IMG/VR virus record: IMGVR_UViG_3300044858_000391
Coordinates: 1 to 22,133 of that record
Length of the DNA: 22,133 nucleotides
Reading direction: 5' to 3' (one strand)
Source of the DNA: a virus
This document shows positions 1 to 21,837 of the stretch, in pieces; within the stretch, counting starts at the first letter, position 1; each line of letters opens with the position of its first letter. Both the position numbers and the translations under genes were made by a program. Below the pieces are notes generated by a model that ran no database searches, was not told where the DNA came from, and saw only the letters and a list, made by a program, of their open reading frames with translations.

Positions 1-3000
1 AATTAAGTTAGGTGTTTCTTTAACAGTCTCTTCAGCTATCTGTGCTTTTGTTTTCTTTTTGCCATCTTTTGTGTAATATTTTTCAGCTACTTTATACACA
101 TAATTATTGCTTGGAAATAAGCGTTCTGTACCTTCTTTGTTATTAAGTAGGTCTAATTTAACTGCTTGGTCAAACATCTTCTTGCCGTGAGTAGCAATGA
201 AGTCATTTACAGTATTTTTATTTGCATTCCATGTATTTTTTGTATAAACCATATCTTTAATGGCATCAACAATAGTCTCTTCTTCAGATTTAGCAAAAGC
301 TTCTTTTTTAGCTTGTTGACGCTCTTGGTTTATTTGCGCTTGTGTTTTAGGCTTTTCAGGTTTAGGTTTCTTAGCATTTCTTTGAGCTATTGATAGCATT
401 AACTCTTCAAGTCTTTCAGGTGTCATCTTACCTGTATAAGGTACACCTGCTTCAGACTTGTATCCTGATGAACTATCTAAGCCTTCACCACGCATTTCAA
501 ATGACAACATACCGCCATCTATGTTATAAATATCTTTATATTTTTCAGGGGATATACCTAAACCTGTCATTGATATATCAATGTCACCTGTACCAAAGTT
601 AAAAGTTTTATTGCTGTCTTTAAATAACTGTGTTGGCTCTACGTTAGGTTGGTTTAATTGATTTAAGTCTGCCCATCCACCATATCTATTAGGCTCACCA
701 CTATCAATTAATGCTTTATCTTTAGTAACAGATAGCACTGTGTTTGTTTGTGCTGTTTTACCAAAGCCACTAATTACAGTGTCACCGACCTTAATCCCTT
801 TAGGATTTTCTTGTTCTTCAACTTGGTGGTATCTATTAGGATTGCCGGCAAGTTCTTGTACACTGCTTTTCCACCCTTCACTAGCGTCAGGATGTTTGTC
901 TAATAAGTCTTGGTAGTAACTTGATACTTTCTTTTCAAGTTCAGATGTATCCTTAACTACTTCTGCAGGTTTAGGCGCAACAGGTGTTTGAATTGTTTCA
1001 GCATACTTAATAGCTTCTTCTTGAGTTTTGAAGTTTTGAAAAGTAGGTAATGTTTCACCACTATCTAAGTCTTTTTGAGCTACATTAAACGTGCCATCAT
1101 CTCTAGGATAAACACTAGCTTCCATCTTGGTTTCATTGTTTACTACTGTATGCAATGGCGTAGTAGGTGATACAGGTGCAGTCTCTACTGGTGTAGCAGA
1201 TACAGGCGTAGTAGATACAGGTGGCGGTGTAGTTATACGATTGTTAGCTCCAACTTGTGTGTCACCAAATAATAAAGATGTAACAGTATCTTGATCAGCT
1301 TGTGACATTTTTTTAGGGTCAATAGCTTTAAGTAATGTTTGTTGATAATCATTACCTGCTGTTTCTTTTATTGCTTCAGCATGTGACCATTCATTTAATC
1401 TTTTTATGGTATTAGTTGTCTGTCTATCACCTTCTAATTTTAATGGTGGAACAGTAATAATACGACCATTAACCGTTCTTAATTGTTCACCACTTTTTAC
1501 CATTCCGTCATCTGGTTTATCTACTGGTGTAACAGTTGGTATTCTTCTTGCCCCAGCTGTAATAGTGCCATCTGGGTTCTTAGTTTCATAGTTTTCCCAT
1601 CCTTCAGGTAAAGGCATAGGTTGTTTAGGTTGTTGAGCTACAGGAGCTTGTGGCTGAACTACTGGCGTTTGTGGTTGTACTACAGGCGTAGGTGTAGGTG
1701 AAGTTGGTGTAGGTGTAGGTGCAGTTGCTACTGGTGTAGGCGCTTGTTCTGCTTGCAAGTCTTCTACATCAGCGTCTGTAAGAACAGGTGCGCTTGTAGG
1801 TAATGGTGGAATTCCTGCTGGTGTTACTACAGGAGGTACTGCAGGCGGAACTACAGGTGGTATTCCCCCTGCTGGAGTAACAGCTGGTGGTACTACTGGT
1901 GGTACTGATGGCTTCATTAAATCTCTAGTAGCAGAGTAAGCTGCTGCAGGAACTTCAATAGCGGCACCACCTAACTCACCCAACATCTCTTGACCAACAT
2001 CGGCTAAGTTTACTTTGCCATATGCCATTTCTTGGCCTGCCGCTTCTGATGCTCCACCACCTGCTACATCAACACCAACGCCTTGAGCGCCAGCTTTTAT
2101 TTTTTGTAATGTGGGTGTATCTTTTACAATTTGCGTTGCACGTTCTGCAATTTTAGCAGCATCAGCACCAGCACCTAATTCTTTCTTAGCGGTTTCAATA
2201 GCGGCTCTTCTTGGAGCAGTAGCCAATCTACCACCAAGCATTGTTGTAGCAGAGTCTACGGCAGCGGTAGTAATACCTTTTGTTCTAGCATCACTAATGG
2301 CTTTGTTTACAAACTGCTTATCTAACAATAATGCTTTAACATTAGCTTCTGTAGGAGCTAACTTTCTATTAGATAACTCTTTGCCTACTAATCCGATAAA
2401 TTCAGAGCCAGTCTCCATTGGAACTTGACCTGCAAATGCACCAGCTACACCGCCAACAACAGCACCTGCTGGAACTGTAAATCCTGCTGATGGGCCACCT
2501 AAAGCACCAAGTCCAGCACCAACTCTAGAACCTGTCATCATACCAACAATAGCAGGAGCCATATTAGCGGCAGACTGTGCTGTTATATAAGCGGCACCTT
2601 TAGGATTGGTTAGTATTTGTTTACCAAACTCACCAAACATACCAGCAGTTGCTACTAAAGCATCTGGAGAATACCAATGTTTAGCTTTTTCAAATGCCTC
2701 TGCTTCGTCAGCAAAGGCTAAATTAGCTTGTTGTAGTTCTTTAGGATTAACAGGTTGAGGTGTAGATAACTCTTTAGCTATTGTTTTAGCTTTGTTTACT
2801 GGGTCTGTGCCTGCAAGTAAAGTAGTAGAAACATCACCTGCCGCAACAGCACTTTGACCGCCTCTTTGTATTAAATTAGCAGCGTTTGAAAAGAAACCTT
2901 TTTCTGCTTGACTAGCTTTATATTGATTTTCAAAGTCTTGTAAGAAGTTACTAGGAGCTTGATTTGATGCATATTGAGCTTCAAAGTCAGCTAGAAAATC

Positions 3001-3024
3001 AGTATTAGCTATAGGTTTTGCCAT
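1..3024 (-). CDS. Very large putative internal virion (ejection) protein, 3' end cut by window edge
   Basis: A single reading frame starts at the ATG at 3024 and stays open to base 1, giving at least 1008 codons with no stop, so the C-terminus lies outside the window. The start overlaps the stop of the 1025-aa gene (TAATG) and follows AAGGAG about 10 bases upstream. About residues 145-205 are rich in Gly, Ala and hydrophobic residues (GAGLGALGG, GAVVGGVAGAFAG), like a membrane-active segment. About residues 370-470 form a proline-rich linker with PPVVPPAV and TPTPTP runs and repeated VVQPQ. The rest is mixed polar and soluble-looking. I recognise no enzymatic motif. Position after three other ejection-block genes, size and the membrane-like segment suggest a DNA-ejection protein comparable in role to large T7 core proteins. 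That role is inference; the open frame is certain. Confidence 0.8.
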   Translation of the reverse strand, partial: MAKPIANTDFLADFEAQYASNQAPSNFLQDFENQYKASQAEKGFFSNAANLIQRGGQSAVAAGDVSTTLLAGTDPVNKAKTIAKELSTPQPVNPKELQQANLAFADEAEAFEKAKHWYSPDALVATAGMFGEFGKQILTNPKGAAYITAQSAANMAPAIVGMMTGSRVGAGLGALGGPSAGFTVPAGAVVGGVAGAFAGQVPMETGSEFIGLVGKELSNRKLAPTEANVKALLLDKQFVNKAISDARTKGITTAAVDSATTMLGGRLATAPRRAAIETAKKELGAGADAAKIAERATQIVKDTPTLQKIKAGAQGVGVDVAGGGASEAAGQEMAYGKVNLADVGQEMLGELGGAAIEVPAAAYSATRDLMKPSVPPVVPPAVTPAGGIPPVVPPAVPPVVTPAGIPPLPTSAPVLTDADVEDLQAEQAPTPVATAPTPTPTSPTPTPVVQPQTPVVQPQAPVAQQPKQPMPLPEGWENYETKNPDGTITAGARRIPTVTPVDKPDDGMVKSGEQLRTVNGRIITVPPLKLEGDRQTTNTIKRLNEWSHAEAIKETAGNDYQQTLLKAIDPKKMSQADQDTVTSLLFGDTQVGANNRITTPPPVSTTPVSATPVETAPVSPTTPLHTVVNNETKMEASVYPRDDGTFNVAQKDLDSGETLPTFQNFKTQEEAIKYAETIQTPVAPKPAEVVKDTSELEKKVSSYYQDLLDKHPDASEGWKSSVQELAGNPNRYHQVEEQENPKGIKVGDTVISGFGKTAQTNTVLSVTKDKALIDSGEPNRYGGWADLNQLNQPNVEPTQLFKDSNKTFNFGTGDIDISMTGLGISPEKYKDIYNIDGGMLSFEMRGEGLDSSSGYKSEAGVPYTGKMTPERLEELMLSIAQRNAKKPKPEKPKTQAQINQERQQAKKEAFAKSEEETIVDAIKDMVYTKNTWNANKNTVNDFIATHGKKMFDQAVKLDLLNNKEGTERLFPSNNYVYKVAEKYYTKDGKKKTKAQIAEETVKETPNLI
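1470..1917 (-). repeat. Proline-rich linker region with short tandem Pro repeats
   Basis: Inside the >1008-aa protein, roughly residues 370-470 and the bases just after them encode runs such as PPVVPPAVTPAGG, PTPTPTSPTPTP and a duplicated PVVQPQ. It separates an Ala/Gly-rich N-terminal half from a more polar remainder. Such stretches usually act as extended, flexible spacers between domains. The boundaries given are approximate. Confidence 0.55.
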
Positions 3025-6000
3025 TATTTAACAACTCCTTGTTGACGAGCGTAGGCTGTAAATGCTTTTTGTTTAACTGGGTCATTAGCATATTGTGAAA
3101 ATGCAGCTTTATATTGATCATAAGTCAATTTTTTTGGCGCATTTGGATTAACTGTGCCTTGTGCAACACCAAGTAATGATAACACTTTTGGGTCAAATTG
3201 TTTATTAGTTTGAGCTGTAGCCATGTCATTAATTTCTTGAATAGTGTACGCATCTATCTTGAAGTTATCTTTGATATATTGTTGAATTTCATCTTTATTT
3301 TTAGCGTGTGCTTGATTGTATATAGCAGAGTATTTAGGTAGCAATGCTGCTTCTCTAGCAGATGCTGCGCTTGCGGCTGATGCCTCTCTAGTTGCCGCAA
3401 TTCCTGCAAGCCCAAGTTTCTTAGCTTGCAACTGTGTTAATGATGTCTGCATGTTATTCAACATTCCTGATTTACGAGCAAAGTCTGCTTTTTCAGCTTC
3501 TACTTGTTGTTGCATAGCTAACTTATTGTTTGCATCTTGTGATTCAGCTCGTTTACCTGCTTGAGTGCTGGCATACTCAAGACCTCCACCTAAGTTAGAT
3601 AAACCATATTGTGATGTACCTTTAGCGGTTCCTATACCAGCATCAATTAAAAAATCTGCAAACTGTGAATTCTTTGCTGCCTTTGCCTCGTCTGACAACG
3701 CTTTTTGCATTTCATCTGATTTAGAAAATGCTGGCTTATCCCATAACTGACTACCATATTTAGCAATATCAGCTTGTAAACGAGCTTCATCATCAATTGG
3801 AGCTACTACTTTATCCCCTTTAGCAAATGCAATGATCCCACCACCTGCCATTGTTTCTGGCACCATATCACCTGTTGGAATAGAACTAATACCTTCATTT
3901 TGTGCCATTATCTGTGGTGTTTGTGGGTTAATCTCCATACGTCTATGTAAAGCAAGTAAGTCTTCTACTGCTTTCATTTCCATAGGATTTAGTTGTGGGT
4001 TACTAAGCAACTCTGTTAATTGCTGATCAGTCATGGTAGATATATCTCCACCAACGCTGTAGCCTACTTTACCGCCATCTTTGTAAGAAGATATGATGCC
4101 GCCTTCTTTATTAAAGCCACCCGCTTTTGTATAAGCGCCAAGGCCAGCCATGCCAAGACCACCAAGCTGTGAAACCATGCTAGGAGGAGCTGTGTATTGC
4201 GTTGCCGCTGATTGTGACAATGGCAAGCCTCGTGTCATGTCTGACATAAAGGCAAGTTGTTGGTAAGGATAGTTTTGTTGTTTCAAGAAGTCTTGATAAC
4301 CTTGGTCTAGGTTTTGCTGTGCTTGCGCTTGTTGTACCGCACCTACTTGTTGTTGTGCTGTGTTGATACCTTGTTGTTGACCAAACTGTGTTTGACCCAA
4401 TTGACCAAGTTGACCTGCACCAGCAAGAATTTGTTGTAGGTTTTGTTGGCCAATATTTGCACCAAACTGTTGTTGATTAGCCGCTAATTGTTGAGCATTA
4501 CCAAATGCACCTTGATTAGCAAGTTGTGCTTGAAGGTTTTGACCAGAACCAAGTCCTTGAGTTTGCAATGCTGATTGCAAGTTTTGTGTGCCAGTAGTCA
4601 AGCCTGCTTGTTGATTAGCCAATGCCGCTTGCATTCTAGCTTGTTGATTAGCTAAACCTGTTTGTTGATTAAATTGACCTTGTTGCAATCCATACTGACC
4701 TAAAATGCCTTGATTAGCCAAGTTCGATTGCTGTGCCAGCTGTGCATTTTGAAGCGCAGTATTGTAACCAGTTTGTTGATTGGCTAATCCTGCTTGTAAG
4801 CCTGCAGCTTGGTTTAATTGTTGCGCTTGTAAGTTTTGACCTGAGCCTAATTGTTGAACGCCTAAATTAGCTTGTAAGTTTTGCTGACCAGTTGTTAGTC
4901 CTGCTTGTTGGTTAGCAAGTGCTGCCTGTAAAGCCTGCTGTGCATTCATGCCTGCAGCTTGGTTTTGTGCTGCTTGATTATTAACAGCAGCCTGTTGTTC
5001 ATTACTTAAATTAGCTAATTGTGCTTGCAAGCCTGTTTGAGTGCCAAGTTGTTGTACGCCTAATTGAGAGGCTAAGTTTTGTTGGCCTGTTGTTAGATTT
5101 GCCTGTTGGTTTGCTTGTTGTGCTTGTAAGTTTGCTTGCTGTTGGGCGTTAAACTGTTGTTGTGCATTTTGGAATGCAGTGTTATATCCTTGGCCAATAG
5201 CTGTATTCATTGCTGTATTTTTATTACGAGCATTTTCAGCTTGCATTAAAGCTTGGCGATTGCCACCAAAGGCACCTTGACCAGTAGCTTGTGATTTTTC
5301 TTGTTGACCAGTGATGTCATATTGACGGCCAATTTCAGCTAACTGTGGCTGTAATGATGCACTTAAGTACGGGTTCATAAATTGCTGTGCAGTACCCGGT
5401 CTATTAAAGTCTTGTGTTCTTACTTGGCTTGCTGGACCCATTTGATATGCAGTAAGGCCGGGCATGTAATTAGTTTTTGCCCCTTGCATTTGTGCGGCAC
5501 TATATCCCGTTCCAGATACGTCCTGAGGGCCTTGCATTTGATAGTTTTGCAAACTAGGTGAGGTTACATTTTGCGAATATACGTTTTGTGGACCTTGAAA
5601 TCCTGCTGATTGAGCCAGTGGAGCGTTGCTTAACTGAGCAGAACGAGCTGTAGGAGCGTATACATTTTGCGGACCCTGCATTGAGTATTGGTTTAAACTA
5701 GGCGCATTAGCACTTAAGTAGCTAGTTTGCATTGGGTTATATTGGTTATTAGCCGCTGCCGCCATGACACCAGCCGTTGCATTAGATGCTTGACCAAGCT
5801 GTGGTGCTGTCTGCATATTTCCAACATTGCTAAATGCTTGTTGTTGCATTGGTGAGAATTCAGCAATACGTTGACCGCCATAGGTCTGGTATGGATTTTG
5901 ATTAATATCAGTAAGTGCTTCAGTCTTACCTAGCATCGTCTCTACATAAGGACGGGCGTATTCAGGAATAGAGGTATTAGTAACTGTTTGGCTACTTGGG

Positions 6001-6101
6001 GCTGCAGAACCTCCACTACCTTTTTTATACAGTTTAATTTTTCCTGACGGGTCTTTTATAAATGCCTCTTCAGGTAACATTTCATCATAGTAGTATGCCA
6101 T
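3024..6101 (-). CDS. Putative internal virion / ejection protein with long hendecad-repeat helix (1025 aa)
   Basis: The ATG at 6101 overlaps the upstream stop (TAATG) and has GGAG 8 bases upstream. Residues 44-92 contain a segment I recognise from other aquatic phage virion proteins (PEYARPYVETMLG, NPYQTYGGQRIAEFSPMQQQAF). Residues 130-240 carry loose repeats of the type MQGPQNVYAP. Residues 296-581 are Gln/Asn/Ala-rich in strict 11-residue units. Residues 601-655 form another family-typical segment (GYQDFLKQQNYPYQQLAFMS, then RGLP and QLGGLGMAGLGAY). Residues 659-685 and 749-764 hold short GG motifs (KEGG, KDGG, MAGGGIIAFAKGD). Residues 845-925 look like a charged coiled coil. There is no signal peptide or enzyme motif. 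Between a GNAT-like gene and a giant protein, it probably belongs to the DNA-ejection apparatus; a tape-measure or scaffold-like role is possible. Gene call very sure, function inferred. Confidence 0.9.
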   Translation of the reverse strand: MAYYYDEMLPEEAFIKDPSGKIKLYKKGSGGSAAPSSQTVTNTSIPEYARPYVETMLGKTEALTDINQNPYQTYGGQRIAEFSPMQQQAFSNVGNMQTAPQLGQASNATAGVMAAAANNQYNPMQTSYLSANAPSLNQYSMQGPQNVYAPTARSAQLSNAPLAQSAGFQGPQNVYSQNVTSPSLQNYQMQGPQDVSGTGYSAAQMQGAKTNYMPGLTAYQMGPASQVRTQDFNRPGTAQQFMNPYLSASLQPQLAEIGRQYDITGQQEKSQATGQGAFGGNRQALMQAENARNKNTAMNTAIGQGYNTAFQNAQQQFNAQQQANLQAQQANQQANLTTGQQNLASQLGVQQLGTQTGLQAQLANLSNEQQAAVNNQAAQNQAAGMNAQQALQAALANQQAGLTTGQQNLQANLGVQQLGSGQNLQAQQLNQAAGLQAGLANQQTGYNTALQNAQLAQQSNLANQGILGQYGLQQGQFNQQTGLANQQARMQAALANQQAGLTTGTQNLQSALQTQGLGSGQNLQAQLANQGAFGNAQQLAANQQQFGANIGQQNLQQILAGAGQLGQLGQTQFGQQQGINTAQQQVGAVQQAQAQQNLDQGYQDFLKQQNYPYQQLAFMSDMTRGLPLSQSAATQYTAPPSMVSQLGGLGMAGLGAYTKAGGFNKEGGIISSYKDGGKVGYSVGGDISTMTDQQLTELLSNPQLNPMEMKAVEDLLALHRRMEINPQTPQIMAQNEGISSIPTGDMVPETMAGGGIIAFAKGDKVVAPIDDEARLQADIAKYGSQLWDKPAFSKSDEMQKALSDEAKAAKNSQFADFLIDAGIGTAKGTSQYGLSNLGGGLEYASTQAGKRAESQDANNKLAMQQQVEAEKADFARKSGMLNNMQTSLTQLQAKKLGLAGIAATREASAASAASAREAALLPKYSAIYNQAHAKNKDEIQQYIKDNFKIDAYTIQEINDMATAQTNKQFDPKVLSLLGVAQGTVNPNAPKKLTYDQYKAAFSQYANDPVKQKAFTAYARQQGVVK
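4359..5216 (-). repeat. Hendecad (11-residue) repeat array, about 26 units, 33-bp DNA period
   Basis: Residues 296-581 of the 1025-aa protein can be cut into consecutive 11-mers without a single insertion or deletion. Examples are LANQQAGLTTG (395-405 and 494-504), LANQQTGYNTA (439-449), LANQQARMQAA (483-493) and LANQGILGQYG (461-471). A higher-order 33-residue block begins at 332, 398 and 497 (QQAxLTTGxQNLQ... GLQAQ/NLQAQ), so copies are 66 and 99 residues apart. An 11-residue period equals about three alpha-helical turns and is typical of right-handed or straight helical bundles. It is Gln/Asn/Ala-rich with very few charges. Confidence 0.85.
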
Positions 6102-6520
6102 TATTCTTTCTCCACAGGCAGTTCATAAAACATGAACCGCTTTTTAAATCCATCTTGTTTAAATATTCTTTCCCATCCAGCCCTACCATAACTTTCTATG
6201 ATCTTGCACCCATTGTCTTTAGCATATCTTTGCAAAATATCTAACATTGGTGTTTTCCATCTTTTTAATTCTATACCACCAGTAAATACCATATCTAATG
6301 CAGTCATATTTGGATAATATGTAAAGGCAGTTACAACAGCACCTAATACTTTTTTATCCTCAAATGCTATCCATAAACTTTGAGGTTTAGTGATTAGCCC
6401 TTCTTTAATGTTTTTTACAGTATATCTACCATATGAATAATCAGCCGCACCTTGTAAATAGCTTTCAATTGAAGGCCATACTTGCTCTATATACTCAACA
6501 GGTACTAATGAAACTTCCAT
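6101..6520 (-). CDS. GNAT-fold phage protein (acetyltransferase-like), 139 aa
   Basis: The ATG at 6520 overlaps the stop of the 569-aa gene (TAATG). The pattern matches a family seen in virion gene blocks of many phages: LWIAFEDKKVLGAVVTAFTY at about 49-68, then YPNMTALDMVFTGGIELKRW, a helix (MLDILQRYAKDNGC) and IIESYGRAGWERIFKQDGF at about 107-125. This beta-strand/helix order fits the GNAT fold. The usual acetyl-CoA-binding Q/RxxGxG/A motif is not visible after the GG-xLKRW strand, so it may not be an active acetyltransferase. T7 gp13, also in a virion gene block, is a GNAT-like protein, so a virion-assembly role is plausible. Fold assignment is moderate; an enzymatic function is not supported. 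Confidence 0.75.
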   Translation of the reverse strand: MEVSLVPVEYIEQVWPSIESYLQGAADYSYGRYTVKNIKEGLITKPQSLWIAFEDKKVLGAVVTAFTYYPNMTALDMVFTGGIELKRWKTPMLDILQRYAKDNGCKIIESYGRAGWERIFKQDGFKKRFMFYELPVEKE

Positions 6521-8284: not shown

Positions 8285-8974
8285 TTACACTGTTTCAGGT
8301 ATGGCTGATATAAATGTTATTGAGCCAATGGAAGATGGTGTTGCTGGGTATGCCATAGGAGATGTTTGTGCTGCTTTTGCTTCTATGTAAATACCCGTTG
8401 CTCCACCTGATACTGCCGCTTGGTCAGTACCCCACCATAACCCAACTACATCACCTACATTTAACTGAAATACTACCTCAGAATATCCGCATACATAAGC
8501 TGGTAGAAGTGCGCTTTTTCTTGATGGAAGCGTAAAAGTAGTGGTTGAACCTACTAAATTTGTACCATTAATTTGTAACCAAACAACTGCATCATGGATA
8601 GCATTGTCATTATTAACTATTTGCAGGCTGTAAGTAATTTTATAGATACCTTGTACTAATGCTGTTGCCGTATTACCAACATCTAATGTAAACCCATTGC
8701 CATAAGCTAAAGTATTCCATTTAACTATAGTTGGCGTATTTGTAGCTGTTGCATATTGATTAGTAGTATCAGATGCCGCTACATAGGGAAACTTTAAATA
8801 TGAACCACCTGTATTAGAAATAAATGGCAATGTAAAGTTATCTACTTGTGCAAAATACAATCTAAGTACATTATTTAACTGGTCTTGAAACTGTTGGCTA
8901 TACTCCATTGGAGCAAGAGACAAGTTTGGTGCCTTTGATGGACGAAGACTACTAACTTTTAATGCAGTAACCAT
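8285..8974 (-). CDS. C1q/TNF-like jelly-roll virion protein (229 aa)
   Basis: The ATG at 8974 overlaps the stop of the 648-aa gene (TAATG). Residues 1-55 form an N-terminal region likely to attach to the virion (MEYSQQFQDQLNNVLRLYFA). Residues 60-205 match the beta-sandwich pattern of C1q/TNF-like phage proteins: GGSYLKFPYVAASDTTNQ, then a threonine-rich strand, GIYKITYSLQIVNNDNAIHD, VVWLQINGTN, FTLPSRKS, YSEVVFQLNVGDVVGLWWGT and YIEAKAAQTSPMAYPATPS. This fold is used in trimeric phage spikes and decoration proteins. Placement after the tail-hub protein suggests a tail-associated fibre or decoration protein. It has no signal peptide and no catalytic motif. The family pattern is well supported; attachment site and ligand are unknown. 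Confidence 0.85.
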   Translation of the reverse strand: MVTALKVSSLRPSKAPNLSLAPMEYSQQFQDQLNNVLRLYFAQVDNFTLPFISNTGGSYLKFPYVAASDTTNQYATATNTPTIVKWNTLAYGNGFTLDVGNTATALVQGIYKITYSLQIVNNDNAIHDAVVWLQINGTNLVGSTTTFTLPSRKSALLPAYVCGYSEVVFQLNVGDVVGLWWGTDQAAVSGGATGIYIEAKAAQTSPMAYPATPSSIGSITFISAIPETV

Positions 8975-10920
8975 TATCGTCTACCATCATTTTTAATATC
9001 AATTCTAGGACTGCCTAATTGCCAAGCTACACCAACACCATCAGACTCAATTCTAAAGCTCATTTGACGGCCTCTAATGCGTGTATAGACCTGTCCTGTG
9101 AACTCTTGGATATTATATGTGTTTCTTAATGTAAAATTATCTTGGCTAGGTACTGCAGGGCTATCAGCCGATCCATATGGTGTACCAGAGTTCTGTCTAG
9201 GTTTAACGATCATCGTTACAGATGGTCCATTTACATTAGAACCATTAAAGTTTACGTCAGGCAATATGCGCCACACAAACCCAAAGTTATGACCATCACC
9301 AATATCAAAATCTGATGACTGTATATATGAATTAATTGCTACTGGGGTAAGTCCTGACACATCATCAACTGCCGCTTCATGGTACAAAATACGGTTATCA
9401 TAGTTAGCCGCCATTGGGTAGTTTCTAATACCTGAATCTAACCATGCTGTTCTTGCCATAGAGCCATAATACCAAACACGGTCTAAGTAATTGTAAATAA
9501 CATACTTATCAATTTCTGTAGCATTACTTGAGTTACTTACATAAAACCACCAGACTTCGTTATAGCCTTCATTGCCACCAGAAAATACTTGAAATGATTG
9601 GTCTCTATTTAAGTCATTAAATATGTACTGTCTTAATGAACATGGCAGTGTTTCTACACGGCCTGAATACATATAGAACTTATCAACACCCATCCAGTAA
9701 GTAACATTATTAACTGTAATCATTGAGTTTGGTGACATAACAGATATGTTATCCATTAGTATATTAAAGCCCCAAACATATGGCGCACCTAAATACTGCA
9801 TAGAATAAATCGCAGAGTTAGTCCATACCAGTATTTCTTGGCGTGTTGGTATTGCTCCCATAATAAATGAGCCATGCGTTAAAGCAAACTCGCCTGCTTG
9901 GTTTGTAATAGCTGGAACCCACTCATATGGGTTTTCTTGGTCAGACCATCGTACAAGCATAGGGTTAAAGTCTGTATTAGGCGTTCCTGATAAATAAGAA
10001 TTAGCACCAAAAGCAATTAAGAACCGTTGAATAGATGATGCTGATATTTGATTAGTTGTATGTGGAACATAATCACCTGCAAAGCCTTCATCTGTTGATA
10101 AAGTATTTAATGATACTGCTCTAAAATTAACACCTAAAGAGTCTTTCCAATAGTAAATGCCACCACTACGAGGTGCAATTACAAGGTCTTGACCAAAGTT
10201 GTCATTAGACCAAAGGCGTAATTGCTGACCAACACCAATTACTGATGCAGCGCCCCAGCCTGTGTTAGATGCACTGCCTGTACCATAGAACCCACTCCAT
10301 GTACCTGCTCCCCATCCTATACCTGCTGTAAATACATCTAGTCCAGTAGGATATTCATATTCAGCTTTAACTACTGCTCCGCCTTTAAGCGTATCGCTTG
10401 AGTTTGCATTAGCCGATACTACTATAGTGTATGTAGTATTTGATGGAACTGTTGCTACAACATATTCTTGATTTAATATGACAGCAGTTATATTTCCACC
10501 TAGACTAACAGCACCTGAAAATACAATATAATCACCAACTTCAGGGTTATATGATGCATCTGTAACAGTAATAATGTTAGAGCCTGTTGTAGCTGTAAAT
10601 GGTCCTGCGGCAGCGCCTAATGCTGATGATGTATGAATTAAAGGGGTAACATCATTATAGGTACCACCCTTTTCAATATAGTATTTTTTACTTGTGCCTA
10701 TGCCTAAGTAGTTATTACCAGCATCAAAGTCAATCCAGTTCCATAATGCACGAGCAATGCCTAAAAATGTACTTGCAGATAACCTAATCCATCCACCTAA
10801 CTTTTCTGGATAGCCTGAACGAAAGCGTATATTGTCACAGTCATACCAACCGCCTTCGTTGCTGTAATTTGTACCTTCACGATTAACACCGGGACGCATT
10901 TGTATTTTCTGTAATGGCAT
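8974..10920 (-). CDS. Tail hub / nozzle-type structural protein (648 aa)
   Basis: The ATG at 10920 is preceded by GGGAAG and lies 1 base past the Rz stop. The N-terminus (MPLQKIQMRPGVNREGTNYS, then EGGWYDCDNIRFRSGYPEKLGGW) is a hallmark of a large family of phage tail structural proteins. Further typical elements are LRLWSNDNFGQDLVIAPRSG, MLVRWSDQENPYEWVP near residues 320-335, GEFALTHGSFIMGAIPTRQE, LVWTNSAIYSMQYLG, and VTYWMGVDKFYMYSGR. Aromatic-rich repeating beta strands are consistent with a beta-propeller-like platform. In short-tailed phages, proteins of this size and pattern make the nozzle or lower tail tube. An insert at about 95-170 looks like a small beta domain (TATTGSNIITVTDASYNPEV). 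I am sure it is a tail/virion protein and moderately sure of the nozzle-like role. Confidence 0.88.
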   Translation of the reverse strand: MPLQKIQMRPGVNREGTNYSNEGGWYDCDNIRFRSGYPEKLGGWIRLSASTFLGIARALWNWIDFDAGNNYLGIGTSKKYYIEKGGTYNDVTPLIHTSSALGAAAGPFTATTGSNIITVTDASYNPEVGDYIVFSGAVSLGGNITAVILNQEYVVATVPSNTTYTIVVSANANSSDTLKGGAVVKAEYEYPTGLDVFTAGIGWGAGTWSGFYGTGSASNTGWGAASVIGVGQQLRLWSNDNFGQDLVIAPRSGGIYYWKDSLGVNFRAVSLNTLSTDEGFAGDYVPHTTNQISASSIQRFLIAFGANSYLSGTPNTDFNPMLVRWSDQENPYEWVPAITNQAGEFALTHGSFIMGAIPTRQEILVWTNSAIYSMQYLGAPYVWGFNILMDNISVMSPNSMITVNNVTYWMGVDKFYMYSGRVETLPCSLRQYIFNDLNRDQSFQVFSGGNEGYNEVWWFYVSNSSNATEIDKYVIYNYLDRVWYYGSMARTAWLDSGIRNYPMAANYDNRILYHEAAVDDVSGLTPVAINSYIQSSDFDIGDGHNFGFVWRILPDVNFNGSNVNGPSVTMIVKPRQNSGTPYGSADSPAVPSQDNFTLRNTYNIQEFTGQVYTRIRGRQMSFRIESDGVGVAWQLGSPRIDIKNDGRR

Positions 10921-10921
10921 T

Positions 10922-11407
10922 TTACTTCCCTACTGACTCAATGTTTTCGTACCAATCAATCAGTGCGTTTAACTGGTCACGGACTTGTTTATACTGCTCG
11001 AAGTTTTCGATGACGTTGGTGAGGACTTCGGTATCAGTGGCGCTAAAGGTATCGGTGCTGGCGGGCGTTTCAGTAATTCCTGTGGGGGTTTTGGGCAAGT
11101 TGCCTGTAAGGGCGCTGTTGTACAACCCCCAAGCAGCGCTATCAGCAAAACATATGCGATTGTCCGTAACATGAGGCACCTTCCCTTTCAGTGTTCTATA
11201 CTTAATGACTTGTTCAGCTTGTTGTGTTTCAAACTTTACGGCAACTTCTCTAGCATATCTATCATAGGCTTGTTGTAGGTCTATCGTGTCCTGTAATGCC
11301 TTCTTTAAGTTAGCATCATACTTCCAACCATGCACAGTCCAGCCAATACAGAACGCTGTGAAAATAGCCCCTGCTATAAGTAGTATACGAACATTAAGAG
11401 GTAGCAT
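10922..11407 (-). CDS. Rz: Rz-like inner-membrane spanin (161 aa)
   Basis: I place the start at the ATG at 11407 (MLPLNVRILLIAGAIF), preceded by the purine-rich AAGGTAAGAGAG. A TTG at 11425 would add six residues but has weaker support. The gene overlaps the end of the holin gene. Residues 8-25 form one N-terminal transmembrane anchor (ILLIAGAIFTAFCIGW). Residues 30-70 are a charged helical, coiled-coil-like region (NLKKALQDTIDLQQAYDRYA). The rest is periplasmic, with two Cys-free halves and a final helix. This is the architecture of an i-spanin, which joins an outer-membrane lipoprotein to fuse inner and outer membranes in the last lysis step of Gram-negative hosts. The nested Rz1 frame strongly supports the call. 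Sequence identity to lambda Rz is not evident; assignment is by topology and context. Confidence 0.82.
   Translation of the reverse strand: MLPLNVRILLIAGAIFTAFCIGWTVHGWKYDANLKKALQDTIDLQQAYDRYAREVAVKFETQQAEQVIKYRTLKGKVPHVTDNRICFADSAAWGLYNSALTGNLPKTPTGITETPASTDTFSATDTEVLTNVIENFEQYKQVRDQLNALIDWYENIESVGK
10969..11172 (-). CDS. Rz1: Rz1-like outer-membrane lipoprotein spanin nested inside Rz (67 aa)
   Basis: This frame lies entirely within the Rz gene in another reading frame. It starts at ATG 11172 with its own ribosome-binding site (GGGAAGG, 6 bases upstream). Residues 1-17 are a lipoprotein signal peptide ending in a lipobox, ALLGGC, with Cys17 as the lipid-modified residue. The mature part is about 50 residues and proline-rich (PKPPQELLKRPPAPIPLAPL), then serine-rich, as in known o-spanins. 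It would sit in the inner leaflet of the outer membrane and bind the periplasmic end of Rz. A signal peptide, lipobox, Pro-rich mature chain and own RBS together make a chance shadow frame unlikely. Confidence 0.85.
   Translation of the reverse strand: MLRTIAYVLLIALLGGCTTAPLQATCPKPPQELLKRPPAPIPLAPLIPKSSPTSSKTSSSINKSVTS
11179..11186 (-). promoter_or_regulatory. Ribosome-binding site of nested Rz1
   Basis: On the minus strand, AGGGAAGG precedes the Rz1 ATG (11172-11170) by 6 bases. It lies inside the Rz coding sequence, where such a spacing is not needed for Rz itself, and so supports independent translation of Rz1. Confidence 0.6.
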
Positions 11408-11588
11408 CTCTCTTACCTTTCGCAAAGTTATCGGCAGTGTGTCCCGCTACTAAAGATATAATATTAAAATTCACAATACTAGTAAAGTCACCGCTGGTTA
11501 GTTTACCTACATACAACAACGCAGCAGACAGCAGGGTTAAGCCTACTGCAAAAGCAAACCGCCTTCCGCCTATGCTGTAAAAGTTCAT
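11394..11588 (-). CDS. Small two-helix holin-like membrane protein (64 aa)
   Basis: The ATG at 11588 overlaps the endolysin stop (ATGA), so it is probably translationally coupled. The protein starts MNFYSIGGRRFAFAVGLTLL, a pattern I recognise from small phage membrane proteins. TM1 spans about residues 10-30 and TM2 about 36-53 (IVNFNIISLVAGHTADNF). It ends in a short basic tail (AKGKRDATS). The length, two helices and charged C-terminus fit a small holin. Its place directly between the endolysin and Rz supports that role: it would form the inner-membrane lesion that releases the signal-less endolysin. An antiholin or general membrane protein remains possible. Confidence 0.72.
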   Translation of the reverse strand: MNFYSIGGRRFAFAVGLTLLSAALLYVGKLTSGDFTSIVNFNIISLVAGHTADNFAKGKRDATS

Positions 11589-12028
11589 TTTATACCCGTT
11601 GAATAAAGTGTTTTACCGTCTGTAAATCTAGCAGTCAGTAACTGCCGTCTGTTCTGTGGGTCGCAACTGATATGCACCCAAGCGTTGCCTTCGCATATTA
11701 ACTGGTCAAATTTCAAGTTACTTTCAGCTATTTTCTTCGCCACCGTAATAGGCGAGCCAAAAGATGGACAAGTGAAGTCAGCCGCCCAACCACGTACGTG
11801 TGCACTCGAATCAGAACTTCCAATATGGCGATTAAGACTAAGACAACGATAACCACTGGATATACGAATAGCACCGCCACCCAGAAGCTCACGGACTTGC
11901 TCAAGCAATGCAGCCAGCATACGAAGATTCTCCACAACCTTTTCACTTGGCGTGTTGTTGATGCTGTGCCTTGTGGCTGTCTGTGATGCGGTAAATTCGT
12001 CAAGATTAAAGTGCTCCGAAAGGTTCAT
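11585..12028 (-). CDS. Endolysin, peptidase M15 family (147 aa)
   Basis: The ATG at 12028 overlaps the upstream stop (ATGA). This is a compact single-domain M15 (M15A-like) D-Ala-D-Ala-type zinc peptidase that cuts peptidoglycan peptides. It starts with LSEHFNLDEFTASQTA, then VVENLRMLAALLEQVRELLG and the family segment IRISSGYRCLSLNRHIG. The zinc-binding motif SxHxxGxAxD is complete: S75, H77, G80 and D84 in SSAHVRGWAADF. The third ligand is H119 in WVHIS, preceded by acidic E113. All key residues are present, so it is probably active. It has no signal peptide, so it would need the adjacent holin to reach the periplasm. A tail-borne peptidase is less likely given its neighbours. Confidence 0.92.
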   Translation of the reverse strand: MNLSEHFNLDEFTASQTATRHSINNTPSEKVVENLRMLAALLEQVRELLGGGAIRISSGYRCLSLNRHIGSSDSSAHVRGWAADFTCPSFGSPITVAKKIAESNLKFDQLICEGNAWVHISCDPQNRRQLLTARFTDGKTLYSTGIK

Positions 12029-17007: not shown

Positions 17008-17058
17008 GATTTATCCTTTAATTTATGTACATTCTACATCTTTATTGGTTGTCGTCAA
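17008..17058 (-). promoter_or_regulatory. Candidate sigma70-like promoter before the 642-aa fibre
   Basis: On the minus strand TTGACG (17058-17053) is followed by a 16-base spacer and TAGAAT (17036-17031); each hexamer differs from consensus at one position. The -35 lies in the last codons of the 481-aa gene and the -10 in the 34-base gap. A start near 17024 would leave a leader of about 17-20 bases holding AAAGGA before ATG 17007. The 8-base palindrome ATGTACAT (17025-17032) overlaps the end of the -10. Confidence 0.5.
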
Positions 17059-18487
17059 CATCTGTCCAGTCTGAAGTTTGACCAGTATTTACTTCTATCC
17101 AAGTATTTGATTGTGAATTAGTTATTTGAGTCCAACCAGTTGTTTGATTAGTATTAACAGCTAACCATGTATTTATTTGAGAATCATCAATTGGAATCCA
17201 ATTTGCTACGTCATTATTAACAATTTTAATCCAACCAGTTGTTGTAGTTGAATCAAATAAGCCACAATTTTCTATTACTGCAGTGGCAAATTGAGCTTTA
17301 ATAGATGGAGTATCATTAACAGAAAAACCTTCTATAACATTATATAAAGACTGACGACTTATGGAAGTTGCTTCTGCAAGTGTTGTGTTTTCAGTAATAC
17401 TAAAGAAAAATATACTTGCAATTATATAAAGGTCATTAAGCGTGGTTGCTTCTGCTACAGAGGATATAAATTGAGCTGTTATTGTTCTAGCATCATTTAT
17501 TGTTATTTGTTCTACCCTTGTCTGTAAGAATGCTGATTGTTGGGTGCTTGCATCTGCTATTGTTATTGGCTCTACCCTTGTCTGTATAAAAGTAGATTGT
17601 TGGGTGTTTGCATCAGCTAAAGTTATTGGCTCGGTTCTACTTGATGCAAATTGAGCTGTAATGGTTTTTGTATCCGCTATGATTATAGGTTCTGTTAGTG
17701 ATGATATAAATTGAGCAGTTAACGCAGGTACATCAGCTACACTAATAGGTTCTGTTCTTGAGTTTAAAAACTGTGCGGTTATCGTTGGAGTAGCCGCTAA
17801 TACCCCATTTTCTACTAACGCCACACTAAACGTAGATAGCTGAGTACTAAAGTCAGCAATCGTCATTACTTCAGTCATACCAAAGAAGAATGCATCAACT
17901 TCAGAATTAAAGTCTAGCATGGTCACGCCTTCGGCTAATGACGCTACAAAGTCATACCGTTGGGTACTAAAAGCTAATATTGTTCCGTTTTCTACACGAC
18001 TAACTACAAACTGCGCAGTGATTGTTTGTATAGATGCTATTGTAGAGTTTTCAGTTAATGAATTTAAAAACTGTGCTGTTATAGTCTTTACGTCAGCTAA
18101 AGTTATTGGCTCTGTTCTACTTACGCTATAGGTAGATAATTGGGTACTTAAATTAGCTAAAGTTATTGGTTCTACTCGTGAATTTAAAAACTGTGCTGTT
18201 ATAGTCTTTACGTCAGCTAAAGTTATTGGCTCTGTTCGTGTTTGCAAAAAAGCAGAAAGTTGGGTACTTAAGTCAGCTAAAGTTATTGGCTCTACTCGTG
18301 ATTGCAAGAACGCTGATTGTTGTGTGAAATTATCAGCTAACGTAATTGGCTCTGTTCTAGTCTGTAAAAAATTGACTGGGTTAGATTGTGTTGCCGCTAA
18401 TATAATGTTTTCAACTAAAGATAATACATATGCCTGCCCTGCCAATGAAGCAAATGGCGTTTGTGCAAATGATGATATCCCGAACAT
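17042..18487 (-). CDS. Repeat protein with 20-residue and 11-residue units, putative fibre (481 aa)
   Basis: The ATG at 18487 directly follows the stop of the 459-aa fibre (TAA then ATG, no gap) with no strong RBS, so coupling is likely. Residues 1-24 are a short N-terminal cap (MFGISSFAQTPFASLAGQAY). Residues 25-404 are 19 consecutive 20-residue units of the form T/V-E-P-I-T-L-A-D-x-x-T-x-x-x-x-F-x-x-S/T-R, plus a partial one. Residues 418-481 are six 11-residue units each with one Trp (W419, 430, 441, 452, 463, 474), as in GWIKIVNNDVA and TWLAVNTNQTT. There is no signal peptide or enzyme motif. It sits between two fibre genes, so a rod-like fibre segment with a Trp-rich, possibly sugar-binding or assembly end is a reasonable inference. 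Confidence 0.85.
   Translation of the reverse strand: MFGISSFAQTPFASLAGQAYVLSLVENIILAATQSNPVNFLQTRTEPITLADNFTQQSAFLQSRVEPITLADLSTQLSAFLQTRTEPITLADVKTITAQFLNSRVEPITLANLSTQLSTYSVSRTEPITLADVKTITAQFLNSLTENSTIASIQTITAQFVVSRVENGTILAFSTQRYDFVASLAEGVTMLDFNSEVDAFFFGMTEVMTIADFSTQLSTFSVALVENGVLAATPTITAQFLNSRTEPISVADVPALTAQFISSLTEPIIIADTKTITAQFASSRTEPITLADANTQQSTFIQTRVEPITIADASTQQSAFLQTRVEQITINDARTITAQFISSVAEATTLNDLYIIASIFFFSITENTTLAEATSISRQSLYNVIEGFSVNDTPSIKAQFATAVIENCGLFDSTTTTGWIKIVNNDVANWIPIDDSQINTWLAVNTNQTTGWTQITNSQSNTWIEVNTGQTSDWTDVDDNQ
17045..17236 (-). repeat. Six 11-residue tryptophan repeats
   Basis: The C-terminal 64 residues of the 481-aa protein have a Trp exactly every 11 residues, with N/T/Q/D-rich linkers and a V/I two or three residues after the Trp. 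The period is exact across all six units. Confidence 0.9.
17276..18415 (-). repeat. Nineteen tandem 20-residue (60-bp) coding repeats
   Basis: Units start at residues 25, 45, 65 and so on, without insertions or deletions. Two sub-types occur, one with TQQSAF/TQLSAF and one with TITAQF centres. They alternate in the first part, giving a 120-bp higher order. The central units (about 7-11) are the most diverged. AAAGTTATTGGCTC-like cores recur on the plus strand. Confidence 0.92.
18059..18237. repeat. Perfect 59-bp direct repeat, copies 120 bp apart
   Basis: Bases 18059-18117 and 18179-18237 are identical. They code for repeat units 6 and 4 of the 481-aa protein. Identity through synonymous positions suggests a recent duplication or gene conversion, unlike other units in the same gene. 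Confidence 0.9.
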
Positions 18488-20491: not shown

Positions 20492-20917
20492 CTAAAATCT
20501 AATAATGGCTGATGTTGCTGTTGCCGTTGGAAAAGTTATTGTAAATCCTGTTACTTGGTTTGGAACTTTATCAGAACCAAAATCTAATACAGCTACTGCA
20601 GAACCTGTTGTACTATTATAAATCAATGCTCCACGAGTAGTAAAACTAGCAGGGTTCCAATTTACATTAGCAAAAGATATATATGCTGTTCCATTACTAC
20701 TTGCAGGCACTGTTGGTGTTAAAATTTTACCACCTGCTATATATCCAGTACCTGTGATCTCACCTTCAGTTGTATATACTAGCGTATCAGCATTTAGCGA
20801 GGCTGTGGCTTGATATAATGCAATCTTGTACACATAAGGTGTGCCAGTGTTAAAGTTCTCTAGAGCGCTTAACATCTTCGTTTTAAACACAGTGCATTGA
20901 GTCTGTACGATAGCCAT
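20492..20917 (-). CDS. Small virion protein of unknown role (141 aa)
   Basis: The ATG at 20917 overlaps the adaptor stop (TAATG), and AAAGGA in the adaptor's last codons serves as RBS. The pattern YKIALYQATASLNADTLVYT, EITGTGYIAGGKILTP, ISFANVNWNPASFTTRGALI and YNSTTGSAVAVLDFGSDKVP is a recognised phage protein type found between head-tail adaptors and fibres. The end is a beta strand pair (TGFTITFPTATATSAIIRF). The family is small, all-beta and often annotated as hypothetical or structural. It probably forms part of the neck or tail surface. Confidence 0.82.
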   Translation of the reverse strand: MAIVQTQCTVFKTKMLSALENFNTGTPYVYKIALYQATASLNADTLVYTTEGEITGTGYIAGGKILTPTVPASSNGTAYISFANVNWNPASFTTRGALIYNSTTGSAVAVLDFGSDKVPNQVTGFTITFPTATATSAIIRF

Positions 20918-21837
20918 TATAGTCCTTTATATGGAAGGCTTGTTTGGCCTTGCCTATAGGCATCATTTCTTTCTAGTCCATCACCAAGACGTTTGGCTTG
21001 CATTAATGCATCTTGATACATTTTTTCATAATAAGTGACCATATCTTGTTCACCTTTCATAAAAATAACAGCTTCACGCATAGCGCCATAAAATAAAACT
21101 GGATCATAGTTATCACCAAGCCAACTTGTGCCAGTTGCATTATTAATTGAAGCTACTGGTACAGAAAATCCTGCTCCAGAATTACCAATATATGTATTTG
21201 ATGCACTTAATATATCACCAACAACATATAGTGAACCACCATTTGTTAAAGTACATTGAGTTACTAATCCACCAGAAATTACAATAGTAGCAACAGCGAA
21301 TGTGCCGTTACCACCTGTTAATGGTACATTTGCATATACACCATTGTTATATCCACCACCGCCAGTAATAGTTCCTAGCGTTAATACAATTCCTTGAACA
21401 ATAGTTTCTGGATAATAAAAATAATGTAATTCAACTGGATAACTATCATTAGGCGTTGGAGCCATAATAAAAGATAGTTCATTAGGATTGGAAATTTGCG
21501 TTCCAAACAATGCGTAATATCTAGGCTCTCCTACATCTGTAGGATTAGGATATGATTCACGTAAAAAATTTACATCTTTATTTAAAAGATATTTATATGT
21601 ACCAGTAGCATCAACAATAGCTACTGAATAAACAGAAAGAAAATCATCTGGGCAAGAAAGATACTTATTGTTTAATGTAGTGTTACCAGTTACATTTTTT
21701 CTAAGCGAAGGAAATTGAACAGTGTTATATATTCTTTCCTCTGCTTGTTGAATAAACATAGGAATACTCTCTACAAATAGAGACTCAGTGTTTTCACTGT
21801 AATTTTGTATTGCCTGATTTAATTCAATGTAGTTCAT
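20917..21837 (-). CDS. Head-tail adaptor protein, SU10-type (306 aa)
   Basis: The ATG at 21837 overlaps the stop of the upstream small gene (TAATG). The N-terminal helical part (NYIELNQAIQNYSENTESLF, ESIPMFIQQAEERIYNTVQF) and PSLRKNVTGNTTLNNKYLSC, PDDFLSVYSVAIVD match the adaptor family seen in SU10-like and many short-tailed phages. Then come YLLNKDVNFLRESYPNPTDV, YYALFGTQ and FIMAPTPNDSYPVELHYFYY. Residues 155-230 form a beta-rich insertion with GGGYNNGVYANVPLTGG. The C-terminal helical part (WLGDNYDPVLFYGAMREAVI, MKGEQDMVTYYEKMYQDALM) is also typical. It would bind under the portal and join the tail. The insertion makes it somewhat longer than simple members. Confidence 0.88.
   Translation of the reverse strand: MNYIELNQAIQNYSENTESLFVESIPMFIQQAEERIYNTVQFPSLRKNVTGNTTLNNKYLSCPDDFLSVYSVAIVDATGTYKYLLNKDVNFLRESYPNPTDVGEPRYYALFGTQISNPNELSFIMAPTPNDSYPVELHYFYYPETIVQGIVLTLGTITGGGGYNNGVYANVPLTGGNGTFAVATIVISGGLVTQCTLTNGGSLYVVGDILSASNTYIGNSGAGFSVPVASINNATGTSWLGDNYDPVLFYGAMREAVIFMKGEQDMVTYYEKMYQDALMQAKRLGDGLERNDAYRQGQTSLPYKGL

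Follow-up and report, generated by a model that had tools for sequence, protein, structure and literature searches.

Little is understood about ejection proteins in short-tailed phages, because these proteins refold within the envelope and are difficult to resolve. In SU10, a Kuravirus, gp20-24 are in the virion and missing from the genome-release intermediate, and hence are ejection proteins (PMC9509320). Sf6 gp12 is a decamer with a 25-angstrom channel (PMC4755594), and the phiX174 H tube is a 17 nm decamer of helices in which three hendecads (11-residue units) are followed by eleven heptads; the residues of its lumen are mostly Asn, Gln and Arg, with Gln the commonest (PMC7354561). The protein described here, from a 22,133-nucleotide stretch of viral DNA (the window; IMG/VR record IMGVR_UViG_3300044858_000391), carries a much longer run of hendecads; open-access papers yielded no report of 11-residue units in an SU10-type ejection protein.

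Family assignment and gene neighborhood

The 1025-aa ORF lies at 3024..6101 on the minus strand, with residues 296-581 at window 5216-4359, as in the initial annotation. The intact protein has no match among Pfam and PHROG profiles, probably because its insert blocks the match to PHROG 4287 (DNA ejection protein). That family is reached through short-array relatives (L005 at 1.4e-23, L062 at 5.8e-24, L096 at 5.4e-25), with the matches of close relatives covering positions 1-331 of 392, and through the window protein itself when an array-shortened query (3.1e-9) or a fragment with the C-side anchor (7.3e-8) is used. The best-matching members here are SU10 gp21 and gp22; the phiM5 member, found in that phage's particle proteome, matches at 6.5e-91. 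Membership in this SU10 gp21/gp22-type family can be assigned with high confidence, which bears out the earlier reading of an ejection-type virion protein. Full-protein tblastn against phage records gave no match, tblastn of the N-terminal part gave weak matches only, needing confirmation by family HMMs, and a single-pattern scan of GTDB genomes found no encoding genome. Short homologues of 286-461 aa occupy the corresponding structural region of the cultivated relatives MinM2, DSL-LC04, CRP-901, HTVC027P and CV-1-33. In ct7L0027 (L042, 9188-12742) the core family is fused within a 1185-aa protein annotated as internal virion protein D, with S74-like and transglycosylase-like segments recognizable by eye, and the phiM5_27 annotation also includes an endosialidase-chaperone segment; processing domains may have been joined to the ejection core more than once.

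The gene sits in a structural block beside other ejection-type genes, in an order similar to that in MinM2, DSL-LC04, CRP-901 and phiM5. Upstream is a stabilization or head-closure type protein (8974..10920, minus; PHROG 3287 at 1.4e-64, annotated "stabilization protein" in DSL-LC04), a homologue of which is found near 83 of 98 array loci, and further away an SU10-type portal adaptor (20917..21837, minus; Pfam PF24175 at 2.5e-18). Directly upstream, between structural genes, is a GNAT-like acetyltransferase (6101..6520, minus), annotated GNAT and in the same place in CRP-901, with a similar gene directly upstream in 29/98 loci. Downstream, and cut by the window end, a 1008-aa protein (1..3024, minus) is a candidate further ejection protein, by a position like that of the DSL-LC04 "DNA transfer protein", with only a weak PHROG match; its gene seems readily exchanged, because in the DNA covered a recognizable homologue is present at only one of the 98 array loci. 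Its N terminus carries two copies of a motif (TDFLADFEAQY, SNFLQDFENQY), and around residues 160-210 it is hydrophobic and rich in Gly.

The window has two further features. One segment at the N terminus of a 167-aa protein (10922-11425, minus) resembles a membrane helix, and a 67-aa ORF nested in another frame (10969-11172, minus) has a lipobox-like LLIALLGGC; the two look like an embedded inner/outer spanin pair, beside an M15 peptidase (11585-12028). A 481-aa protein (17042-18487, minus) is made of imperfect 20-residue repeats (ITLADxxTQxSxFLxTRxEP), visible in the DNA as 60- and 120-base tandem repeats.

An 11-residue register between two anchors

Within the ejection-type protein, a conserved N-terminal segment (residues 45-95, IPEYARPYVETMLG ... 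FSPMQQQAF; 5817..5969, minus), with near-invariant columns in A1/A2 and AF2 helices at 50-64 and 84-94, is followed by a variable spacer (residues 119-232; 5406..5747, minus) predicted to be disordered (AF2 pLDDT ~30). The N-side anchor (residues 240-300, MNPY...GAFGGNRQALMQAENARN; 5202..5384, minus) has predicted helices at 237-274 and from 280 on (pLDDT ~85), and its MSPY-to-GAFGG distance is 36 residues in 77/78 homologues. The C-side anchor (residues 595-627, QNLDQGYQDFLKQQNYPYQQLAFMSDMTRGLP; 4221..4319, minus) is likewise conserved in homologues. Between them lies most of a proline-free region (residues 253-611; 4269..5345, minus), with no Pro between 252 and 612 and mostly helical by AF2 prediction. 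A second long helix is predicted in the C-terminal extension (residues 833-947; 3261..3605, minus; pLDDT mostly 80-96); these 115 residues have no 11-residue period, with lag-11 identity near background.

The 11-residue period noted initially is real. Over residues 296-581, lag-11 identity is 0.284, against 0.165 in shuffles (z 5.7; in 99% of shuffles no lag exceeds z 3.9), and the same test picks up phiX174 H at z 4.8. Lag 66 is stronger than lag 11 (z 7.8), lag 33 reaches z 4.5, and lags 44 and 55 also appear. The superimposed 33-residue blocks are equally evident: block 1 (residues 332-364; 5010..5108, minus) is identical to block 2 (398-430; 4812..4910, minus) at 23/33 positions, block 2 to block 3 (497-529; 4515..4613, minus) at 25/33 and block 3 to block 1 at 22/33, and the best 33-mer self-match is 27/33, compared with at most 18 in 200 shuffles. 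Near-absence of charge was also correctly noted: residues 296-581 contain two charged residues only (E368 and R489) and no proline. What needs revision is the extent. About 26 units without indels had been proposed for residues 296-581; the register is indeed unbroken, but should be read as ~19-22 units over ~309-550. Windowed lag-11 identity is raised from ~309 to 550 and at background level beyond, and scanning with a 33-residue profile (LANQQAGLTTG QQNLQAQLGTQ QLGAQQGLQAQ) derived from 161 blocks in other members of the family places 19 units from 329 to 537 (4491..5117, minus), every match in the same phase modulo 11; a match at 572 is one residue off register. Array-bearing homologues also keep the 11-residue register.

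At the DNA level the array copies are old. Tandem Repeats Finder reported no array at the hendecad region of the window, and codons of matching residues at lag 66 are alike in 46/77 cases, no excess over the expected 0.58. Recent tandem duplication is rejected because DNA-level repeats are absent.

Array length and the evidence for a helix

Some 160 relatives were compared, some of them found with search patterns that included array motifs. The array is bounded by MSPY-36-GAFGG and YPYQQLAFMSD, and spacing was measured from GAFGG to YPYQQ, with anchors located by similarity and a few perhaps wrong (e.g., at the extremes of 48 and 848 in the second set below). Across 79 non-redundant homologues it runs from 108 to 576 residues, and its periodogram, like the other statistics counting clusters as independent, has one dominant peak at 3.665 residues, or 11/3, with R 0.84 (maximum of the jittered null, 0.38), whereas R at 11 is only 0.26; the lengths are therefore locked first of all to the helical turn (11/3), and less strictly to the repeat unit. 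A later search supplied 77 further independent spacings and replicated the peak (3.66, R 0.71) at a similar phase (133 degrees, compared with 119 in the first set). The predicted disordered spacer of the same proteins serves as internal control: measured from FSPLQ to MSPY it varies from 66 to 280 residues and is unphased (R 0.10 at 11/3).

The same rule appears between near relatives. In a tree built on the anchors, many of whose forks are weak, the length difference was an exact multiple of 11 for 16 of 24 sister pairs (p 8e-12); among the remaining 8 pairs, it was 3, 4 or 7 modulo 11 in 7. The window protein (spacing 335) nests with L005 and L059 (both 115), array-free close relatives from which it thus differs by a whole number of units (+220, 20 x 11), a difference that gain or loss would explain equally well. 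By alignment, the 220-residue segment absent from these relatives corresponds to residues ~317-536 (4494..5153, minus), its ends being alignment-dependent.

Composition points the same way. Across family arrays proline makes up 0.1% of residues, as against 6.4% in the flanks, a depletion of ~60-fold, and Leu, Ala, Gln and Asn fall on separate helix faces: with a rotation of 98.2 degrees per residue, 326 array windows put Ala 176, Asn 213 and Gln 36 degrees away from the hydrophobic face (z 15-27 when the non-hydrophobic residues are shuffled). The array agrees with a hendecad coiled coil in its strict register (329-537) and in family faces segregated at 11/3. In the window array by itself the single stripe is weak, the hydrophobic Fourier peak of 5.3 being not above shuffles (95% point 7.2). 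Hydrophobic pairs in the family also have an 11/2 component, so that the pattern is not one simple stripe; a helix with two or more contact faces would fit these results, though they do not prove it.

The AF2 monomer model of the window protein has helices throughout (280-351, 358-465, 476-513, 522-543, 552-624) and no strands, with good confidence beside the anchors; mid-array, pLDDT falls to 35-60 with breaks, and a short homologue (L100) behaves similarly. PDB sequence search and Foldseek returned chance-level helical matches only, with no structural or sequence relative, and VIA, used as a further check, yielded uninterpretable helical hairpins of middling score (Z under 8). The alternative of a beta-solenoid is rejected: AF2 predicts no strands, lag-2 hydrophobic pairs are depleted (0.67), and steps of 3, 4 or 7 residues would break an 11-residue coil.

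Could the array simply be a flexible, disordered Gln/Asn-rich linker, expanding and contracting merely by repeat recombination? Its low-complexity composition (Q 28%, A 18%, L 12%, G 12%), the low mid-array pLDDT and the fast length change between sister lineages in the tree would suit such a linker, but its lengths should not then lock to 3.67 residues, beyond a mere 11, while the disordered spacer of the same proteins shows no phase; the depletion of proline, the fixed helix faces and the age of the DNA-level copies also argue against it, and we regard it as very improbable. A helix is indicated because the lengths are phase-locked at 3.67 residues, proline is depleted, residue classes keep to separate faces and AF2 secondary structure is helical: the helix of the initial annotation is supported, and the array very probably forms one. 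More generally, when structure prediction leaves doubt, a spacing periodogram offers a way to recognize a continuous helix with no information beyond lengths.

Possible roles and comparison with known systems

The leading explanation for this helix runs as follows. The core of the protein is two conserved helical anchors (MSPY-36-GAFGG and YQDFL..YPYQQL), whose joint measures ~108-119 residues in the simplest members; in this lineage 11-residue units would have drawn the joint out into a long alpha-helix with no proline and hardly any charge, nearly straight at 3.67 residues per turn if continuous in the folded protein. Copy number is free to change, but only by steps preserving the angular phase between the anchors: mostly 11s, otherwise about one or two turns. 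Because the Leu face has an Ala face roughly opposite, with Gln and Asn stripes between, each helix could pack on two neighbors, and the most likely outcome is that several ejected copies line up alongside one another as a helical bundle or tube whose wall is rich in amides and may contact DNA; like the phiX174 H tube, it would lengthen the path of the DNA into the periplasm. Taken as a whole, an SU10-type ejection protein with a phase-controlled helix and a bundle or tube conduit is the best explanation at hand and is somewhat favored; the bundle or tube, taken as a separate element, we put a little below even chances. Counting against this explanation are the 12% of Gly in the array, the low mid-array pLDDT, the weak hydrophobic peak of the window array and the absence of a PDB relative, besides the length variation and the homologues with no long array described next. 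Alternatively, the helices may fold back or be staggered, or act within the head.

An envelope-spanning rod of ~43 nm, as first suggested, is unsupported: with spacings of 108-576 residues in relatives whose genome sizes are similar, array length is ~five-fold variable. A single straight helix between the anchors would measure 17 nm at 115 residues, 50 nm in the window protein and 86 nm in the longest member, lengths too different to be dictated by one fixed envelope width, and a fixed envelope ruler is rejected. The homologues in SU10, LUZ24 and MinM2 have no long array, and the long array is thus dispensable for ejection as such. Free length would be easier to understand if the array belonged to a T7-like core, stacked on the portal within the capsid, instead of acting as an envelope conduit; until they are ejected, the T7 and PhiM1 proteins do sit on the portal as helical rings (PMC8954989, PMC11440229), but SU10 virions have no resolved core density for their ejection proteins (PMC9509320). 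Such internal packing is compatible with the bundle or tube explanation; as the account of what the array does, it seems distinctly unlikely. Natural variants differing mainly in helical unit number make the role of conduit or bundle length directly testable.

The array might also be a tape-measure-like ruler, its unit number setting how long a tail extension or conduit becomes. Published tape measure proteins differ in how many 11-residue units they have, and some mix periods as 11-11-18 (PMC3271669; Belcaid et al., 2011), with occasional 18-residue (11+7) steps and unit gain and loss; here too lags of 11, 18, 29 and 33 are enriched and unit number changes by whole units. Tape measure units carry W/F markers, but the array contains no W, and its six F are spread over more than one column, at no fixed positions. 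Moreover, the phage markers are of the short-tailed type (the SU10 adaptor and the stabilization protein), with no sign of a long tail, and array length does not follow contig size (n=12, rho 0.33, p 0.29). The window protein also differs in family and gene neighborhood, and a ruler is therefore judged unlikely. Hendecads, and 11-residue units with gain and loss, were already known; new here are the extreme, uncharged array and the phase rule.

P22 gp7/gp20/gp16 and T7 gp14/gp15/gp16 resemble the window protein in general job and in genome position after head-closure genes (in P22, gp10 and then gp26, gp14, gp7, gp20, gp16). They differ in having no lag-11 signal and in belonging to PHROGs 598, 917, 805 and 1339; the P22 gp7/gp20 and T7 gp14/gp15 families, in separate PHROGs, do not match the core HMM.

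Closer is SU10 itself, whose gp21 and gp22 fall in the same PHROG 4287 by profile, with relatives of the window protein matching nearly the whole core; the proteins are alike Gln/Asn/Ala-rich, and both phages have the SU10-type adaptor. SU10 gp21 (350 aa) and gp22 (322 aa) have no significant 11-residue period (z 0.1 and 2.0), while the window protein, at 1025 aa, has the 220-residue expansion and the C-terminal extension.

For the array, the nearest likeness is phiX174 H. By family the two are apart, H matching PHROG 1471 only and the family HMMs having no significant match to H. An ejected protein may nevertheless serve some short-tailed dsDNA phages as material for an amide-lined hendecad helical tube that arose independently of the H tube as its counterpart, and that changes length over evolution by 11 residues at a time, preserving end-to-end angular phase; this broader proposal we consider possible but rather doubtful. 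H has many charges and three hendecads with eleven heptads, whereas the window array has ~20 hendecads, is almost uncharged, and is at most a putative oligomer. H is delivered with the genome and makes a protein tube for DNA; the window protein, which would probably also be delivered with the genome and may form such a tube, has in common with it hendecads and Gln-rich, here predicted, helices.
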